A stretch of DNA of 39,738 nucleotides, taken from IMG/VR virus record IMGVR_UViG_3300038701_001473, positions 1 to 39,738 of that record. One strand, 5' to 3'. Shown here in pieces: positions 1,179 to 27,867 of this stretch. The notes beneath the pieces were generated by a model. That model saw only the letters and a program-made list of their open reading frames with translations, ran no database searches and was not told the origin of the DNA. Every line of letters starts with the position of its first letter. Position 1 is the stretch's first letter. Made by a program: the position numbers and the translations under genes. The DNA comes from a virus.

Positions 1179-2324
1179 TCAAAACCCGTTCACCTTCACG
1201 CGGCTAACCTCGCCCTTTTCACGGTGAAAAGTTATCGCCTGCAATTGAGCGCGGGCTGTGTAGGCATGGGATACCGCATAGGCATCGCGGGCGGTTACAG
1301 CGCGTAGCTGTTCCCACTGTACGCCGCCAATGTCAGCGCTTTTGTGATGGTGAAGGTGGCCAGTGAATAGGAACCGGTGACGGGTCTTGCCCCATAGCTC
1401 GGCGTACTGGTCAGCGATGAAGTGGACCATGCGATCAGCCTTGGCCTTGTCGCCGTGGTGGGCTGCCAGCATCACCTTACCGTGTTGTTTAACAAACCAT
1501 TCACCCGGTGTCTTTTGAACCCGTATGCGTGGGTTATCGCGGTAGCGTTCACCAAGGGCAAACAGGACCGCCAAATATGCAAACGGGTCATGGTTGCCGG
1601 GAATAATGTGAACACGCACCTTAGCGTGCTTTTCCGCCGCACAATCAATTGCTGCAACCAGCGTTTCTATGGTAATGTCTATGGTCTTGAAGTGTCGCGT
1701 ATCAACGTCCAGAATGTGGCCGCTTCGGCGCGTCATATTGGTTTGATCATCCGCGTGGGTTAAATCGCCTGCGCTTAGAATAACAGCCGTTTCAGATGCC
1801 GGTGACGATGCCACGCATTGGGCCACCCACGACTTGACCCGCTCGGCTGCTTTGGCCGTGTCGTAATCCTCGCCAGTTTCCTTGCCCCACGCTTGAAGAC
1901 CCATGTGCACATCGCTCAAAGGATACAGCGTCAACAGGTCGGCTTCGCTGTGTTCTGGTGCTGATACCACCGGGGCTGCTGTAAGGCTCTCAAAAACGCC
2001 CCTGATGCGTTCTAACATGTCTTCTGCGGCAATGGCCTGCTTTGGCACCGACCAGCGCACCGTTTCCAGTTTGCGGCCCTCGTCGTCTAGGACGTACTTA
2101 TATCCGCCTTGAACCTCAACGCCATTCATGCCCGCTGCTTGCATAGAGCCGCGTGCGCCGTCTGACAAATGGTAGCCTAAGTCCCTGCCCCGCTTAAGGC
2201 GGTTGCGCATGGCGTTGGGACTTATGCCAAGGTGCCTAGCTGCGGCGCTGTTGTTATTGCCGCATTGCTCGTATGCTTCAACGGCTGCGCGGTATTGTTC
2301 TGGCGTCACAATGGCCGTCGCCAT
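1179..2324 (-). CDS. Calcineurin-like metallophosphoesterase with N-terminal HTH
   Basis: 381 aa. Residues ~5-45 form an HTH of the type used to sense DNA (AYEQCGNNNSAAARHLGIS, then NAMRNRLKRG). The remainder is a metallophosphoesterase with all metal-site motifs in order: SDVHMG, AGDLTHADD, IPGNHD, HHGDK and FTGHLHHH. It is expected to hydrolyse phosphodiesters or phosphomonoesters with two metal ions; the substrate is unknown. Related HTH-phosphoesterase fusions are known in phages. The start at 2324 is chosen because it forms a TGATG overlap with the upstream membrane protein gene; an upstream in-frame ATG (2399) would overlap that gene by 76 nt. Confidence 0.85.
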   Translation of the reverse strand: MATAIVTPEQYRAAVEAYEQCGNNNSAAARHLGISPNAMRNRLKRGRDLGYHLSDGARGSMQAAGMNGVEVQGGYKYVLDDEGRKLETVRWSVPKQAIAAEDMLERIRGVFESLTAAPVVSAPEHSEADLLTLYPLSDVHMGLQAWGKETGEDYDTAKAAERVKSWVAQCVASSPASETAVILSAGDLTHADDQTNMTRRSGHILDVDTRHFKTIDITIETLVAAIDCAAEKHAKVRVHIIPGNHDPFAYLAVLFALGERYRDNPRIRVQKTPGEWFVKQHGKVMLAAHHGDKAKADRMVHFIADQYAELWGKTRHRFLFTGHLHHHKSADIGGVQWEQLRAVTARDAYAVSHAYTARAQLQAITFHREKGEVSRVKVNGF

Positions 2325-2749
2325 CAGATTGGCTGCCCGTAAACAGCTTCCATGGCCTTGCCGTGTGCCACCGGCATGGTGCCAAGGCGGGGCGTGCAAG
2401 CAACGCCGTCGCGGATCATGTAAAGATAGGCGCCGCCACCGGCCTCAACCACAAGGGCCGACAGTCCGCGCGATGCTTCCGGTCGATTGTCAATCACCGC
2501 TGCGATGTAAAGGTCAGCTTCCAGCGGGGTTAGCATATAATAGGGTTCGCCCGCCTCGCCAGCAGCGTCAATCAATTCCTCCGGTGTGCCGAAGTCATCA
2601 TGACAAATCATGATGGTTTGCGCTTGCACCGGATCAATCCCGCGTGCAAAATAGAACGCTATCAACAAGGCCAAGAAAAGCGCAATCAATCCAAATTGCA
2701 GGCACAAAAAAACCGCCATACGGCGGCGGGTAACAGCATTACGGGCCAT
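2324..2749 (-). CDS. Single-pass membrane protein, 141 aa
   Basis: A basic N terminus (MARNAVTRRRM) precedes one strong hydrophobic segment (about residues 11-34), so the C-terminal domain is probably outside the cytoplasm (positive-inside rule). The rest has no recognised family. It is translationally coupled to the metallophosphoesterase by TGATG and follows the lysis genes. A role in lysis timing or superinfection exclusion is possible but unsupported. Confidence 0.7.
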   Translation of the reverse strand: MARNAVTRRRMAVFLCLQFGLIALFLALLIAFYFARGIDPVQAQTIMICHDDFGTPEELIDAAGEAGEPYYMLTPLEADLYIAAVIDNRPEASRGLSALVVEAGGGAYLYMIRDGVACTPRLGTMPVAHGKAMEAVYGQPI

Positions 2750-2780
2750 GGTGGCCTCCTGTGTGGTGTTGGGGTTAGGG

Positions 2781-3266
2781 TTAGTCCGTCACCTCGAAAA
2801 CATTGCTTTCATCCCAGAAAATGCGGGGTGTGTTGCCCTCGGCCCGCGTCATAGACCAAGCTGTAATCAGGCGATAAAGTCCCGGTTCGGTGATGCACTC
2901 TGCCATGTCCACGCCCGCATAGGTTGACAGGCGCATAGTCACTTCACCAGCTTCGGTGATGGCGTAAGGCGCAAGGCCGTCGCCTTGGCAAACCTCGACC
3001 CATTGGCCATCGCGGTTTTGCAAAACCTCAACCGTCCATCGGCCCTGCATGTTTTGTGTGATAGTGCGTTGGTAGGATATAATCGGGTCTTCACCCACAC
3101 GGTGAATTGGCACCTCAATATGCGCGTCAAACCAATCCGGCGAGGTCAAGTTTGCCAGCACAGTTGCACCCAACACAGCCCCGCCGCCGAACATGACCGA
3201 ACCGATAAGGGCAAGCATCAGGTTGCCATCATCCAGCGCCCACTTATGCCAAAAATCCAAGCGCAT
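2781..3266 (-). CDS. Membrane-anchored hypothetical protein, 161 aa
   Basis: Begins MRLDFWHKWALDDGN, followed by one hydrophobic segment (about residues 16-40) and a ~120-aa probably beta-rich domain containing two cysteines. The ATG at 3266 is chosen because GGAGG (3272-3276) lies six bases upstream; the alternative GTG at 3278 would include that ribosome site in its own coding sequence. The gene follows the small coiled-coil membrane protein with a TGA-TATG junction. Function unknown; located in the lysis region. Confidence 0.7.
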   Translation of the reverse strand: MRLDFWHKWALDDGNLMLALIGSVMFGGGAVLGATVLANLTSPDWFDAHIEVPIHRVGEDPIISYQRTITQNMQGRWTVEVLQNRDGQWVEVCQGDGLAPYAITEAGEVTMRLSTYAGVDMAECITEPGLYRLITAWSMTRAEGNTPRIFWDESNVFEVTD

Positions 3267-10095: not shown

Positions 10096-10429
10096 GAACA
10101 AAGCCCTTTGCGCATTATTGCTCGCTTCCATGCCCTTCGCTGCCATGGCTTCAGGCACGGGAACATCGCGGACGTGCCAGTTTGAAAACGGCGTCCAAGT
10201 AGACTTTTTTATTGGTTGGGATGGGTCTTCGGTTCTCGTTTATGACAACGAAACGGAAGTGGAGGCGGTGGCATTACGCCTCAACGGCGCAATGACCTTC
10301 GTTTCAGATGACGGTCAGCAAACTTGGCTGGCAACCATTGGCAACACTGGCGCAATAGCTGGCTTTAATGACGGTGAAGTAGTCAACGCCGATATAGGTC
10401 AAGGGCAATGTCAGGAACTAGACGTTTGA
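10094..10429 (+). CDS. Secreted/periplasmic protein in moron-like island, 111 aa
   Basis: A clear Sec signal peptide (MNKALCALLLASMPFAAMAS) with an AxA-type cleavage near residue 19. The mature protein is small, beta-rich in appearance, and has a Cys near each end (TCQFENG and QGQCQELDV) that could form one disulfide. The layout recalls small periplasmic inhibitors such as the MliC lysozyme-inhibitor fold, but similarity is weak and only suggestive. It runs opposite to the surrounding late genes and its ATG overlaps the ATG of the virion hydrolase. It may act in the host periplasm, for example superinfection exclusion or protection from lysozyme. Confidence 0.7.
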   Translation: MNKALCALLLASMPFAAMASGTGTSRTCQFENGVQVDFFIGWDGSSVLVYDNETEVEAVALRLNGAMTFVSDDGQQTWLATIGNTGAIAGFNDGEVVNADIGQGQCQELDV

Positions 10430-10434
10430 TGCTA

Positions 10435-10452
10435 ACCACCTGTCGTGGTGGT
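10435..10452 (+). other. Hairpin between the two plus-strand island genes
   Basis: ACCACC-tgtcgt-GGTGGT forms a perfect 6-bp stem with a 6-nt loop. It lies between the secreted-protein gene and the second membrane-protein gene. There is no T-tract, so it is more likely an mRNA-stabilising or translation-control hairpin, or an operator, than a terminator. Confidence 0.45.
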
Positions 10453-10682: not shown

Positions 10683-12740
10683 CTAGCCACCATAGGCTTG
10701 TGGGTTGGGTTGATAGGCAACAGCGGTTGATGCGCCAGCCGCATTGGATGCCATGCCTTGTGCGGCCTGCCTTGAGGCTGTGCGGGCCTGTTGTTTACCA
10801 ATCTCACCAAAGATAACCGCTAGTTTCTGCGGGTCTGTCTCGGTTAGCATATCGATCAAAATACGGCGTTCAGTGCCGCCAATACCGCCCGGCAAACGCC
10901 GAATGATGCGCGCTGCCGATTGCCTTAAAGCAGACAAAATACCCCCGCCGCCTGATGCAACATCTGCCCCAAGCTCCGCAAGCATCTGCATAGCCTCGCC
11001 ATCAGCTTGCGCCAGATTATAAGACGTTTGCGAGCCACCAGTAACAGCTTGCCTTGATGCAGCAATTTCGCGCTGTGCTGCGATGTGGCGGGCAAAATCG
11101 TCTGCTGCTTCCTCGCTACCAAACATGGCGCGGATGGCCTGTAAGCGGTTGCCGCCTGGGCGCAGTTGGGTGGTTGCATCCGCCATATCTTGGATACGCC
11201 CGCCGAAGCGGTTAGCCGCTGTGATGCGAGCCAAGGCGCGTTGAGGCGCTGTCGCGTTCTGCATCCAGTTGCGAAGCTGGTCTGCTGACATGCGGTCAAA
11301 CTCGCGACCTACCGGCATCCCATCAATCCCTGACATTAGGGTGGAATGCAAATTGTCCGCTTCGCGCAATGCGGGGTTTGCAGCTTTCATAATGCGATCA
11401 AGCGCCCCACGAAGTTGCCCCGGCCCATACGTGCCACGGGTAGCCCCGGCTCGCGACCCCATGTCTGCAATATCATCGAAGGCATAGCGCATGTAATGCA
11501 GCGCGCGGATATCAATGTCTGGCAAATCATCCAAAACCTTGCCCGCATCGTCAAAGACATCTGGAAAGCGAACGCCAGCCCTAATTAACTCCGGGTCGTT
11601 CCTCACCATTGTTTGTGCACGCCTCACCGCTTGCCGACCAGCCGGAGTATTGAAAACCATTTTTAGGGTGCGGTTCTGGCCGCTAACCGTTCCCTGTACC
11701 CGTTCGTAAAGCGGGCGCGTCTGCTGGCGTACTGCTTGCCTATATTGGCTTTCAATCTGGCTTGGCGGCGTAAGGCGGAACCGATCCGGCACAAGCCCTG
11801 CATCTGCTCGGCTGCGAATAGCGCGCGGGGCATCTTGCAGCCGGTTTTCGACAAAATCGTCAAGGCGACGGCCAGAACTAAGGCCTGTAGCAGTGCCTGG
11901 TGTGTCGCGCACGGCACGCGCTAGACCGCGCGTTGAATTTCCCGTTTCAAGCAATGACCCACTTACGCCATCGCGGCGCATTTGGTCCAAACGTCCGCGC
12001 GCCTGTTCTGCGGTTAGCCCGTCATCATCCAAACGCCTTGCAATGCGGCGCAAGGCACCTTGACGCGCGTTAACAGGTGTCACACCATCACGCATTGTGC
12101 CACGTGGGATTGCACGACTAACGCCCCTAGCTAGTCCTGAAATGCCCTCAACAGCGCCACCAATACCACCCCCAGCAACAGCACCAAGTGCCATGCCTCC
12201 AAGTGCATTTTGCGACCTTTCTTGTAAAGTGTCACCCTCACCAAATCCAACAACGCCGCCCGCAACGCCGCCTGTGCCCGCCGCTTGTGCAACGCGCCCC
12301 AAGCCCGTTGATGCGGTAGGCAACGCCACACCTAGCGAACGCGCCGCACCCATGGGGGCTAAAATGCTCGTTCCTAAGCCTAGCGTATCAGATGCAAGGC
12401 GCTCAATGGAACCTTGCCGCCTTTCTGCATCTTGTGAAGCGCCAGCATCCCGTGCCCGTGCCCGTTCCCAAGCGCCATCAATGCCGCCGCCCGTAGCAAT
12501 ATCTTGCACTGCATAGCCAGCCGCACGGACTTCATCTGCAAAGGGAACCATATCACCGGCACGCTGGAAAAAATCTGTGGCGACTTGAGAGATAGAGCGG
12601 TCTGCGTCACCTAGTGCTGAGCGCTGGCCTGATTGTCCACCGGCAACTTGCTGCCGCACCACACGTTGAATAACAGCCGGGTCTGTTCCTTCTGGGAAAT
12701 TCAAAACCGTCCCATCAGCAAGGCGCGCCTCAATCGTCAT
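10683..12740 (-). CDS. Internal virion/ejection protein, 685 aa
   Basis: Starts MTIEARLADGTVLNFPEG, an N-terminal motif (Ile-Glu-x-x-L-x-D-G-x-x-L-x-F-P) common in large phage internal virion proteins. Residues ~125-215 are Gly/Ala-rich and probably membrane-active (LGGMALGAVAGGGIGGAVEG). The rest is helical and charged, with long Arg-rich segments. It sits in the ejection-protein cluster just upstream of the hydrolase. It is expected to leave the capsid with the DNA and form part of a trans-envelope channel. No enzymatic motif seen. Confidence 0.75.
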   Translation of the reverse strand: MTIEARLADGTVLNFPEGTDPAVIQRVVRQQVAGGQSGQRSALGDADRSISQVATDFFQRAGDMVPFADEVRAAGYAVQDIATGGGIDGAWERARARDAGASQDAERRQGSIERLASDTLGLGTSILAPMGAARSLGVALPTASTGLGRVAQAAGTGGVAGGVVGFGEGDTLQERSQNALGGMALGAVAGGGIGGAVEGISGLARGVSRAIPRGTMRDGVTPVNARQGALRRIARRLDDDGLTAEQARGRLDQMRRDGVSGSLLETGNSTRGLARAVRDTPGTATGLSSGRRLDDFVENRLQDAPRAIRSRADAGLVPDRFRLTPPSQIESQYRQAVRQQTRPLYERVQGTVSGQNRTLKMVFNTPAGRQAVRRAQTMVRNDPELIRAGVRFPDVFDDAGKVLDDLPDIDIRALHYMRYAFDDIADMGSRAGATRGTYGPGQLRGALDRIMKAANPALREADNLHSTLMSGIDGMPVGREFDRMSADQLRNWMQNATAPQRALARITAANRFGGRIQDMADATTQLRPGGNRLQAIRAMFGSEEAADDFARHIAAQREIAASRQAVTGGSQTSYNLAQADGEAMQMLAELGADVASGGGGILSALRQSAARIIRRLPGGIGGTERRILIDMLTETDPQKLAVIFGEIGKQQARTASRQAAQGMASNAAGASTAVAYQPNPQAYGG

Positions 12741-25742: not shown

Positions 25743-25976
25743 ATGACCATTTATTACGCAGCACAATCACCGCGCGGCTTCTCAAACGAAGTTAATGTCT
25801 ACCGCTTCAGCGACAAGCAAAAGCGTGATGCATGGGTAGCAGAACATGGGCACGATGGTGACGTAAACGGCGCGGCGATGGGTGCCTACACGATAACCCA
25901 AAAAGAGGCGCGCAAATTAGTCGGCTGGCCGCTCAATAGCCAAGAGGCCGCAATGTTTATGGGTGACGTTCAATGA
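25743..25976 (+). CDS. Hypothetical protein, 77 aa
   Basis: No family recognised. The sequence (MTIYYAAQSPRGFSNEVNVY, RFSDKQKRDAWVAEHGHDGD, ITQKEARKLVGWPL) looks like a small globular alpha/beta protein. A strong AAGGAG site and promoter precede it, so it should be well expressed early. Coupled by ATGA to the following HTH gene, so the two probably work together or are co-regulated. Confidence 0.75.
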   Translation: MTIYYAAQSPRGFSNEVNVYRFSDKQKRDAWVAEHGHDGDVNGAAMGAYTITQKEARKLVGWPLNSQEAAMFMGDVQ

Positions 25977-26164
25977 CCCCCGCCCAATTCCACCAATGGC
26001 TCGCAGCTATGAAAGCTGCGGGCCTTGCCCGTTCCGACGCCGAATGTGGGCGCCTGCTAGGACGCTCTGCGGATCAGGTTGTGAGGTATAAGGACAAGGG
26101 CGCTGATCGCTCTATTGCCCTTGCCTGTCGTGCCTTGCTTCACAGGCTTGATCCGTATTCATGA
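25973..26164 (+). CDS. HTH protein, copy A of a duplicated unit, 63 aa
   Basis: Predicted small DNA-binding protein: MTPAQFHQWLAAMKAAGLAR, then SDAECGRLLGRSADQVVRYK with an HTH-like SDAECGRLLGRSADQV, and a C-terminal helix IALACRALLHRLD. It is about 73% identical to the 63-aa protein at 26534 by direct residue comparison. The ATG overlaps the upstream stop (ATGA). The gene is followed by a 30-bp block repeated after the second copy. Likely a regulator; no target known. Confidence 0.8.
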   Translation: MTPAQFHQWLAAMKAAGLARSDAECGRLLGRSADQVVRYKDKGADRSIALACRALLHRLDPYS

Positions 26165-26189
26165 AAAAGCCCGCTGGGCGAACCATGCG
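26160..26189 (+). repeat. 30-bp repeat block, copy 1
   Basis: Begins at the stop codon overlap of HTH copy A and is identical to 26721-26750 after HTH copy B. It contains CATG, AAAAAGCCCGCTGGGC and GAACCATGCG. On the minus strand the core is GCCC-agc-GGGC-TTTTT, terminator-like. On the plus strand the ATG could start small coupled reading frames (MKKPAGRTMR...). Confidence 0.85.
26164..26179 (-). terminator. Terminator-like element, copy 1
   Basis: Minus-strand GCCC-agc-GGGC followed by TTTTT. The stem is only 4 bp, though an alternative CCCGC/GCGGG pair (26170-26174 with 26187-26191) could extend it in this copy. It may end minus-strand early transcripts from the replication genes. Confidence 0.4.
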
Positions 26190-26198
26190 GGTGAGTTG

Positions 26199-26215
26199 TT
26201 TGCATAAAGTGCAAA
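26199..26215 (+). other. Variable hairpin after repeat block, copy 1
   Basis: TTTGCA-taaag-TGCAAA is a perfect 6-bp stem starting ten bases after the 30-bp repeat. At the equivalent place after copy 2 a different but also perfect stem exists (26758-26778), so the structure is kept while sequence differs. Confidence 0.5.
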
Positions 26216-26218
26216 GAA

Positions 26219-26241
26219 GTATTGCAGCGCCCCGGCAAGCC
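26219..26241 (+). repeat. Repeat block (GTATTGCAGCGCCCCGG...), copy 1
   Basis: A 23-bp block matching 26899-26921 with one mismatch. It ends the repeated unit that follows each HTH gene. Confidence 0.75.
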
Positions 26242-26278
26242 GAATGGCTACAACACACAACAGGAAAGATTGCCCAAT

Positions 26279-26512
26279 ATGCAAGAACGGAAGTGCTCTA
26301 TAAGCCATGTTAATGTAGTGGTTTGCGAAAGACGCGCCATTTACGTCAATGACACGAGAATAACAAACAGGGCCACAAAATGGGGGTTGCGCCATGTTTT
26401 GGCGTCGTTTTCATGCGCGCCAGACGAGGTTGTCAAAGAATGCCTAGCACGCGGCTTCAAGGATCACGTGGAGGCGATTGATGACCCAAAATATGCGCCA
26501 ACTAACAAGTAA
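26279..26512 (+). CDS. Hypothetical protein, 77 aa, between the duplicated HTH units
   Basis: No family recognised. It reads MQERKCSISHVNVVVCERRA and on to ITNRATKWGLRHVLASFSCA; three cysteines are present. The ATG at 26279 lies 11 bases after AGGAAAG. It sits between the two copies of the repeat as possible cargo. A competing small frame (26161-26313) beginning at the HTH stop overlaps its 5' end. Confidence 0.55.
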   Translation: MQERKCSISHVNVVVCERRAIYVNDTRITNRATKWGLRHVLASFSCAPDEVVKECLARGFKDHVEAIDDPKYAPTNK

Positions 26513-26533
26513 TCCTTGCCAGTTGAAAAGAAA

Positions 26534-26725
26534 ATGACTGCAACCCAGCTTCACCAATGGCTCGCTGACATGAAGGCTGCGGGCCTAGCCCGTTCCGACG
26601 CCGAATGTGCCAGATTGCTTGGCGTATCAGCCAACAGCGTGGTTTCGTTTAAGGCCCGTGGTGGTGATAGGCGACTGGCCCTTGCCTGCCGTGCTTTGCT
26701 TCACCGCCTTGAACCGTATCCATGA
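26534..26725 (+). CDS. HTH protein, copy B of a duplicated unit, 63 aa
   Basis: Paralogue of the 25973 protein with the same length: MTATQLHQWLADMKAAGLAR, then SDAECARLLGVSANSVVSFK and LALACRALLHRLE. About 46 of 63 residues are identical, and most differences lie in the presumed recognition region (RSADQVVRYKD versus VSANSVVSFKA), as if the copies bind different sites. The ATG at 26534 gives the same length as copy A; a TTG at 26516 is also in frame. The ribosome site is weak. Confidence 0.78.
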   Translation: MTATQLHQWLADMKAAGLARSDAECARLLGVSANSVVSFKARGGDRRLALACRALLHRLEPYP

Positions 26726-26750
26726 AAAAGCCCGCTGGGCGAACCATGCG
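26721..26750 (+). repeat. 30-bp repeat block, copy 2
   Basis: Identical to 26160-26189 and in the same position relative to the HTH gene stop. Confidence 0.85.
26725..26740 (-). terminator. Terminator-like element, copy 2
   Basis: Same minus-strand GCCC-agc-GGGC-TTTTT arrangement as copy 1. It is the first such element met by minus-strand transcription leaving the 27263 gene. Confidence 0.45.
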
Positions 26751-27141
26751 AACGACTTATGTGCGCTTTTTGCACATATGTACTGAGTGCGCCTTTTGGG
26801 CGGGAATTGGAGCGGGTGTGCCTTACCGTGGTGTACCGGCCCTAAGGGCGCACATGCTACGGCGACCCATAAGGGAAGTCCCGCTGTCCGTAGTGTCTGT
26901 ATTGCAGCGCCCCGGAAAGCCTTGAAACCGAGCCAAGCATACGAAAGCCACCTTACCCGGCGATGGCCAAGGCTCAGACTGCAATAAGGTTCAGGCGTGG
27001 GCGCATACCCATCTTTGGTTCCAGATTGGCTACTGGAGCGAGGATCAAAGCCGTTAGGCAGTGTCCGCCTGAATTGGTATCGCACGGGCCGGGCACCACC
27101 CCGGCTTCACCGATGCTAGCTTTCGGTTAAGCTTGGCCCTA
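26751..27141 (+). ncRNA. Candidate structured noncoding RNA region
   Basis: About 390 bases with no convincing gene but many nested inverted repeats: TATGTGC/GCACATA (26758-26778); imperfect GTGTGCCTTA/TAAGGGCGCAC (26816-26853); GGGCGC/GCGCCC (26846-26912) enclosing CTACGG/CCGTAG (26857-26893) and a GGG/CCC tip; a cloverleaf-like 84-nt fold (26990-27073); and GCCGGG/CCCGGC (27088-27105). The strand of transcription is not certain; plus is assumed because it follows the HTH gene. No known RNA family was recognised. The remaining 27142-27262 holds only GGCGC-aaa-GCGCC (27215-27227). Confidence 0.45.
26899..26921 (+). repeat. Repeat block (GTATTGCAGCGCCCCGG...), copy 2
   Basis: Matches 26219-26241 with one mismatch. 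Its GCGCCC can pair with GGGCGC at 26846-26851. Confidence 0.75.
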
Positions 27142-27262
27142 AAACATATTGTTTACAGCGCCGCCGTGCGAATTAGATGGGATAGCCGAAGCCACCCAAA
27201 CTGAATTTCATACCGGCGCAAAGCGCCAGCTTACCCCTTACTTGCACAAAAAGTTTAACCTG

Positions 27263-27778
27263 TCAAGCGGTTTCGCAATAAATGCCCCAGGCATCGCAAA
27301 GCTCTGTAAGCTTCTGCCGAACCATGAAACGGGCAACCGCCACGGCCTGCGCTTTGTTTGTCTCACCCATTAGCCGCCCAGCATCCTCAAGCGTCTGGTC
27401 ATCACACACAACGGCCTCAAACACAGCGCCATACCATTTACCCACCAAGCGGCTTGCTTTGCCGTATTCGGCCCAATGATAGGCCGCTGCTTCGCTTTCG
27501 TGCATACCATTGCCACCACCGCCTGTTGCGTTAAAATCCACGGTCTTTGCGTGACCGGATAGGCCAGCCTGGTATTTGTGCTGGGCATAGCGCTTTCCAG
27601 CCTCATGCATTCCTGCGCATATCTGGCCCTTGTCGCGCATGCGTTGCAATGGGCTTATGACCTTGGCCTTGCGTTCGGACTTACTCACACCGCTAATCAG
27701 CACAAAATCATGCTTGCGGCGTTCTTTGGTGCCTAAGTCATTGCGGGTAGGCTGCTGCTTGGTGGTTGGCTTGGTCAT
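27263..27778 (-). CDS. Hypothetical phage regulator-like protein, 171 aa
   Basis: A basic, Lys/Gln-rich N terminus is followed by ISPLQRMRDKGQICAGMHEA, GKRYAQHKYQAGLSGHAKTV, and a helical C-terminal half (LMGETNKAQAVAVARFMVRQ, KLTELCDAWGIY). The layout resembles DUF6456-like/late-regulator proteins of alphaproteobacterial phages, in which a C-terminal HTH-like region is present, but I cannot be sure. The ATG at 27778 overlaps the 30-aa gene stop (ATGA) and follows GGGGA; an upstream ATG (27814) lacks such a site. As the last gene of the early minus operon it could switch on late genes. Confidence 0.6.
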   Translation of the reverse strand: MTKPTTKQQPTRNDLGTKERRKHDFVLISGVSKSERKAKVISPLQRMRDKGQICAGMHEAGKRYAQHKYQAGLSGHAKTVDFNATGGGGNGMHESEAAAYHWAEYGKASRLVGKWYGAVFEAVVCDDQTLEDAGRLMGETNKAQAVAVARFMVRQKLTELCDAWGIYCETA

Positions 27779-27867
27779 GGGTTTAGCGGTCCCCAATTTA
27801 GCGCCAGAAGCCATGCAAGATTTGCGATCAGGCCCCCAACAAGCAAGCCATTAGAGAATTGCCGCAT
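27775..27867 (-). CDS. 30-aa single-pass membrane miniprotein
   Basis: Reads MRQFSNGLLVGGLIANLAWL then LALNWGPLNP: one hydrophobic helix. The start overlaps the stop of the 115-aa gene (TGATG) and the stop overlaps the start of the next gene (ATGA), so the frame is fixed at both ends by coupling. No family recognised. Confidence 0.55.
   Translation of the reverse strand: MRQFSNGLLVGGLIANLAWLLALNWGPLNP

Follow-up and report, generated by a model that had tools for sequence, protein, structure and literature searches.

What is the element that follows each of two paralogous HTH genes in this phage DNA, and does it belong with them? The window (the whole 39,738-nt stretch of an IMG/VR virus record, whose phage character is seen in portal and terminase matches) had been proposed, in a first-pass annotation, to hold a duplicated unit in which protein and hairpin are cognate, each HTH protein binding the RNA or DNA hairpin next to it. 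The parts of that unit are present. HTH1 and HTH2 share 46/63 residues (73%), the start codon of HTH2 being the ATG at 26534, not the TTG at 26516, and its end 26725(+); both are contained in a direct repeat of 253 nt at 73% DNA identity. An identical 30-bp block, CATGAAAAAGCCCGCTGGGCGAACCATGCG, follows each gene (26160-26189 and 26721-26750), and two perfect hairpins of differing sequence are found, TTTGCA/TGCAAA at 26199-26215 and TATGTGC/GCACATA at 26758-26778. A second repeated block, the 17-mer GTATTGCAGCGCCCCGG, occurs at 26219-26235 and 26899-26915. The matching position ascribed to these elements applies to the hairpins but not to the second block, which lies 3 nt past hairpin 1 and 120 nt past hairpin 2. 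The features of the locus are given below, L058 being a contig related to the window (homologous SSB and neighbouring genes).

25973-26164, plus strand: HTH1, 63 aa, convergent neighbour of the minus-strand RNA region
26164-26192, minus strand: predicted terminator 1, the first 30-bp block, found by terminator scan; its 24-mer is in 17 other contigs
26199-26241, minus strand: hairpin 1 and remnant of the module C 3' end; the hairpin and its flank recur in L058 at 92% over 71 nt
26279-26512, plus strand: probable small gene lying between the repeat copies, without family match
26534-26725, plus strand: HTH2, 63 aa, convergent neighbour of the minus-strand RNA region
26725-26753, minus strand: predicted terminator 2, the second 30-bp block, found by terminator scan; the inner stem and T-run are kept but the outer stem is broken
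26758-26778, minus strand: hairpin 2, seen in the sequence just upstream of terminator 2
26811-26908, minus strand: module D, almost certainly a member of a new pseudoknotted RNA family (core about 26893-26812, covariance model R1)
26899-26987, minus strand: module C, an RNA domain whose closing pair is TATTGCAG/CTGCAATA; conserved with L058
26990-27074, minus strand: module B, stem TTCAGGCG/CGCCTGAA enclosing a variable domain; stem kept in the window and L058
27077-27172, minus strand: module A, stem CGCACGG/CCGTGCG, in L058 CGCACAG/CTGTGCG
27263-27814, minus strand: gene for a 183-aa protein without family match, upstream of the RNA region

The minus-strand noncoding region

The hairpins and the 17-mer belong to a noncoding region of the minus strand that runs from 27255 down to 26729 and has several blocks in common with L058. 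Read on this strand, the 30-bp block is a predicted intrinsic terminator: copy 1 reads ACCCGC ATGGTTCGCCCA GCGGGC TTTTTCATG, a GC-rich stem followed by a T-run, and the terminator scan flags both copies, the outer stem being complete in copy 1 and broken in copy 2. An exact 24-mer of the block recurs in 17 other phage contigs of IMG/VR, of which about nine resemble one related group and the remainder are separate contexts, and a near-exact copy is present in a Limnohabitans phage. Preservation of a terminator with the loop ATGGTTCGCCCA near letter-for-letter in many phage contigs (L002, L054-L070) is unusual for a terminator loop. Other 16-mer matches (L071-L077) show no wider similarity and were dismissed as chance.

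Does this element travel with the HTH genes? The 63-aa HTH protein represents a widespread phage family of about 50 relatives (L004-L053), and neither the family nor HTH1 and HTH2 themselves have a Pfam or PHROG match. The block 24-mer was found in 0 of the approximately 50 loci retrieved by the HTH protein, the covariance model gave no significant match to the module D RNA in the loci of these relatives, and L058 has its HTH gene about 5.5 kb away from the block and the first hairpin. Besides, third codon positions of HTH1 and HTH2 are only 55.6% identical whereas the adjoining 30-bp block is identical; the block is thus far more alike than the genes, and the two do not have one simple common history. 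That gene and element are duplicated in the same order is what speaks for a cognate pairing of each HTH protein with its hairpin. However, gene and element are unlinked in other contigs, and the element, read on the opposite strand, is a predicted terminator together with the 3' end of an RNA, so that we regard such a pairing as very improbable. The diverged hairpins, which had been taken for a covarying element, stand just upstream of a minus-strand terminator. By themselves hairpins 1 and 2 are unremarkable; what rises above chance is the 30-bp block and the stretch from hairpin 2 to 27172.

Within this stretch, module C has the closing pair TTGCAG/CTGCAA and its 3' end is the 17-mer, while copy 1 of the repeat retains only the last bases of module C, the hairpin and the terminator. 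The stem of module A shows a compensatory change between two sequences, those of the window and L058. Folding energies of the minus-strand region are only mildly better than those of shuffles (z -1.6 and -1.9). Pattern scans for a third relative of modules A-C returned L058 and chance matches only, and a plasmid search with the L058 region gave no match. The large structured noncoding region (window 26990-27172, L058 10554-10860) is common to two phage contigs only and has no Rfam match. In L058 a tRNA-Gly(TCC) on the minus strand (10364-10435(-)) precedes the terminator and the first hairpin; the RNA region of that contig also holds a degenerate tRNA-like sequence (10925-10991(-)) and follows a NusG-family gene (11146-11835(-)). 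In the window, ARAGORN found no tRNA or tmRNA genes, with relaxed settings yielding noise only, and no known RNA family was detected.

The module D RNA family

The segment 26908-26811(-) is almost certainly, judging from sequence comparison, a member of a new RNA family of about 85 nt that occurs in Alphaproteobacteria. It scores 88.8 bits (E 7e-20) against covariance model R1, of whose 30 rows the window is one. Independently of that model, blastn on plasmids matched module D at 84.7% over 85 nt (E 4e-15), the matches to 26893-26812 lying at unannotated sites in Rhizobium, Agrobacterium and Aestuarium. A degenerate pattern then located many more sites in alphaproteobacterial genomes and, in viral records, two additional genuine copies, L085 and L086; two other pattern matches, L083 and L084, were discarded as chance because their sequences lack the helices. 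Since most members were retrieved with one pattern, only the sampled searches give unbiased frequencies.

The pseudoknot of this family is supported by covariation. Alignment of 30 members gives five helices, the pseudoknot included, with 95.2% of cells paired compared with 31–39% in slid controls, and 72 double-change cells compared with 25.7 in shuffles; the shuffle control leaves relatedness in, whereas the slid control removes it. The P2 pseudoknot shows compensatory changes, and a rerun of the covariation test added another two viral copies and a further host copy. An unpaired core, CACGGTAAGGC, is strongly conserved throughout the family. In Rfam the window region matched no family even at E 10, and the host and viral loci none at gathering score. 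Searches of open-access papers turned up neither the RNA nor the protein described below, a prior description elsewhere being possible; the main text of an R. etli tiling-array paper, searched by terms, gave no coordinates for the RNA site.

The partner protein and its co-occurrence with the RNA

What accompanies the RNA in bacteria? It repeatedly has as its neighbour a convergent gene for a protein of about 176 aa. Of the bacterial RNA loci, 27 have 500 nt or more of sequence downstream; the protein is present in 22 of these, either intact or as its C-terminal part, and convergent in all 22; its reading frame ends 27-52 nt after the RNA. We found no Pfam (four members searched), NCBIfam, PADLOC or PDB-sequence match of note, and an AlphaFold model (pLDDT 90) matched no PDB or viral fold at E <= 0.001. 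The protein alignment contains 20 invariant positions, among them histidine, serines, arginines, aspartate and asparagine.

Model R1, when run on the loci of distant homologues of the partner, gave a clear match in L157, a weak one at the expected place in L154 and no match in the others. Near several such homologues (L145-L148, L150-L152, L158), other RNA-like sequences and terminators occupy the same convergent place; comparison by eye hints that these are other structured RNAs, and it is possible that they represent co-diversified RNA families. Some bacterial copies (L081, L097, L101, L108, L078) lie near toxin-antitoxin (TA) genes, the neighbours having been picked by hand: HipA, Zeta, RES, Xre/MbcA, Fic and AbiEii.

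Starting from the protein, in the order and family samples, 7/7 intact close homologues had the RNA adjacent, L154 being counted among the seven on its weak RNA match at the right place. Starting from the RNA, the outcome was mixed: 690 genomes (297 Rhizobiales and 393 Rhodobacterales) contained 13 copies, with an intact protein beside five, a truncated or fragmentary one beside five (including L180, which has only a short match in a long frame) and none beside three. Dozens of Rhizobium plasmids keep the RNA intact with only the C-terminal part of the protein left, and the RNA is found without the protein in the bacterial loci L080, L081, L097, L104, L179, L182 and L183. In L179 an apparent serine recombinase gene (2104-3096(+)) lies beside the protein-less RNA, a hint of mobile-element carriage. 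Overall the distribution of the RNA is sparse, a few percent of genomes at most.

It is highly probable that RNA and protein work together. In the sampled genomes the RNA is kept without the protein, and the reverse was not seen. This asymmetry, read from distribution, would be expected if the protein were harmful without the RNA, and the contrast between the two sampling directions fits a toxin and its antitoxin. We therefore lean slightly towards a protein held in check by its RNA. The first-pass annotation had also called the locus an undescribed protein-RNA system; there is indeed a new structured RNA that is tied elsewhere to a protein in a TA-like arrangement, but the RNA lies on the other strand and the partner is not the HTH protein, so that this call is supported by accident only.

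Viral copies, possible roles and known systems

Why would phages carry the RNA alone? Four viral records contain it, namely the window, L085 (39.8 kb), L086 (83 kb) and L175 (6.4 kb), and no match to the partner protein was found in any of these records. RusA, primosomal, HNH and terminase matches support the phage character of L085, L086 and L175. All helices and the conserved core are kept in the viral copies. In L085, where the protein is absent, the core is 97.6% identical to a Nioella copy; the similarity reaches 26 nt upstream and 32 nt downstream of the modelled segment and takes in the terminator, and a TTGACA motif lies upstream of the RNA in both. A complete RNA-protein pair adjoins a prohead protease gene in L174, a 44-kb prophage-like record. 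In L175 a TTGACA-bearing block before the RNA (about 233-272) recurs 600 nt downstream (847-886), and is possibly a phage promoter used twice.

Our preferred reading, which we hold tentatively, is that the RNA of the window is a phage copy of a bacterial RNA from a TA-like two-gene module, captured alone and keeping the effector bound. The protein of about 176 aa would be a toxin or abortive-infection effector inhibited by its RNA; phages would have captured the RNA alone and would express it during infection; and the RNA so supplied would keep the host effector bound and inactive, as PhiTE does with pseudo-ToxI. That the phage RNA acts as a mimic is, on the sequence comparisons, plausible though somewhat less than an even call. 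The repeated blocks are read as the 3' end and terminator of a predicted minus-strand transcript, with the HTH genes as convergent neighbours only. Several facts count against mimicry: the window copy sits in a longer predicted transcript together with modules A-C; the RNA-only viral records are four, one of them a 6.4-kb fragment; repeats, co-directional order and fold, as type III systems have them, are missing from the bacterial module; and RNA-only loci occur in bacteria too, so that carrying the RNA alone is not special to phages and is by itself no proof of counter-defence.

The same RNA-only and protein-truncated bacterial copies could mean that the phage copies are leftovers with no phage role, the protein gene having been lost from a whole module or the RNA picked up by chance. 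Retention of all helices and of the conserved core, the four separate viral contexts and the lack of any protein remnant past the terminator in L085 argue otherwise, and we consider leftovers quite unlikely. Alternatively, RNA and protein could form a ribonucleoprotein with a non-toxic role, such as regulation, the host protein being recruited or redirected by phages through the RNA. That the unpaired core CACGGTAAGGC is so strongly conserved suggests a binding site, and the partner has no recognisable toxin or nuclease fold; yet the sparse distribution, the carriage on plasmids and in a prophage and the decay of the protein while the RNA stays look more like a conflict module, which leaves a non-toxic role rather unlikely. 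The wider picture that extends the mimic reading is speculative and, in our judgement, doubtful: a new alphaproteobacterial RNA-protein conflict module, made of a single pseudoknot RNA convergent with a new-fold effector, would be countered by several phages with RNA-only copies, and modules A-D of the window, with the tRNA-Gly of L058, would form a series of RNA counter-defences of which D alone has been recognised so far.

Whatever its role, an RNA family absent from Rfam, with covariation that includes a pseudoknot, is linked here to a protein family without Pfam, NCBIfam, PADLOC or PDB fold match. If the proposed function is true, this would be a new protein-RNA TA-like module, and nature would offer one more example of phages overcoming such a module by means of RNA only. 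The case also shows that a noncoding RNA standing alone in a phage can point to an unrecognised host system.

How does the module compare with known ones? The strand order P1, P2, hairpin, P1', hairpin, P2' is that of the nested pseudoknot of HDV-like ribozymes, a candidate that was dropped because Rfam gave no match; neither P1.1 nor the J4/2 consensus was recognised in the RNA. With AbiF and its RCd22 RNA (PMC12373285) it shares a noncoding RNA that has a terminator of its own and lies next to an effector, in a prophage; the AbiF RNA consists of two hairpin motifs whereas here there is one pseudoknot, and four partner-protein members showed no Abi_2 Pfam match. Type III toxin-antitoxin systems (ToxIN, TenpIN, CptIN, AbiQ; feature list from PMC12373285) likewise place a structured pseudoknot RNA, as P2 with its compensatory changes is here, beside one protein gene on mobile elements. 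Their RNA is arranged in tandem repeats and lies upstream of the protein gene on the same strand with a terminator between; here there is one RNA copy per genome or record, a single unit in every aligned locus, and a convergent order in 22/22 loci. As to the ToxN/AbiQ fold, the pLDDT 90 model gave no PDB fold match at E <= 0.001 and the protein no PDB sequence match. Because of repeats, gene order and fold, we do not claim membership in type III systems.

The closest parallel is pseudo-ToxI of phage PhiTE, an RNA mimic of the ToxI antitoxin whose evolution proceeds through expansion of its repeats or recombination with the host locus (PMC3475682). The RNA and protein families differ, PhiTE has 36-nt repeats where we find one long pseudoknot, and the present case is known from sequence. 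In both, an intergenic phage RNA resembles, and in this case is a homologue of, the RNA that belongs to a bacterial RNA-protein module, while the protein is absent from the phage (here the window, L085, L086 and L175), and in both it may have been captured from a host copy, as L085 suggests.
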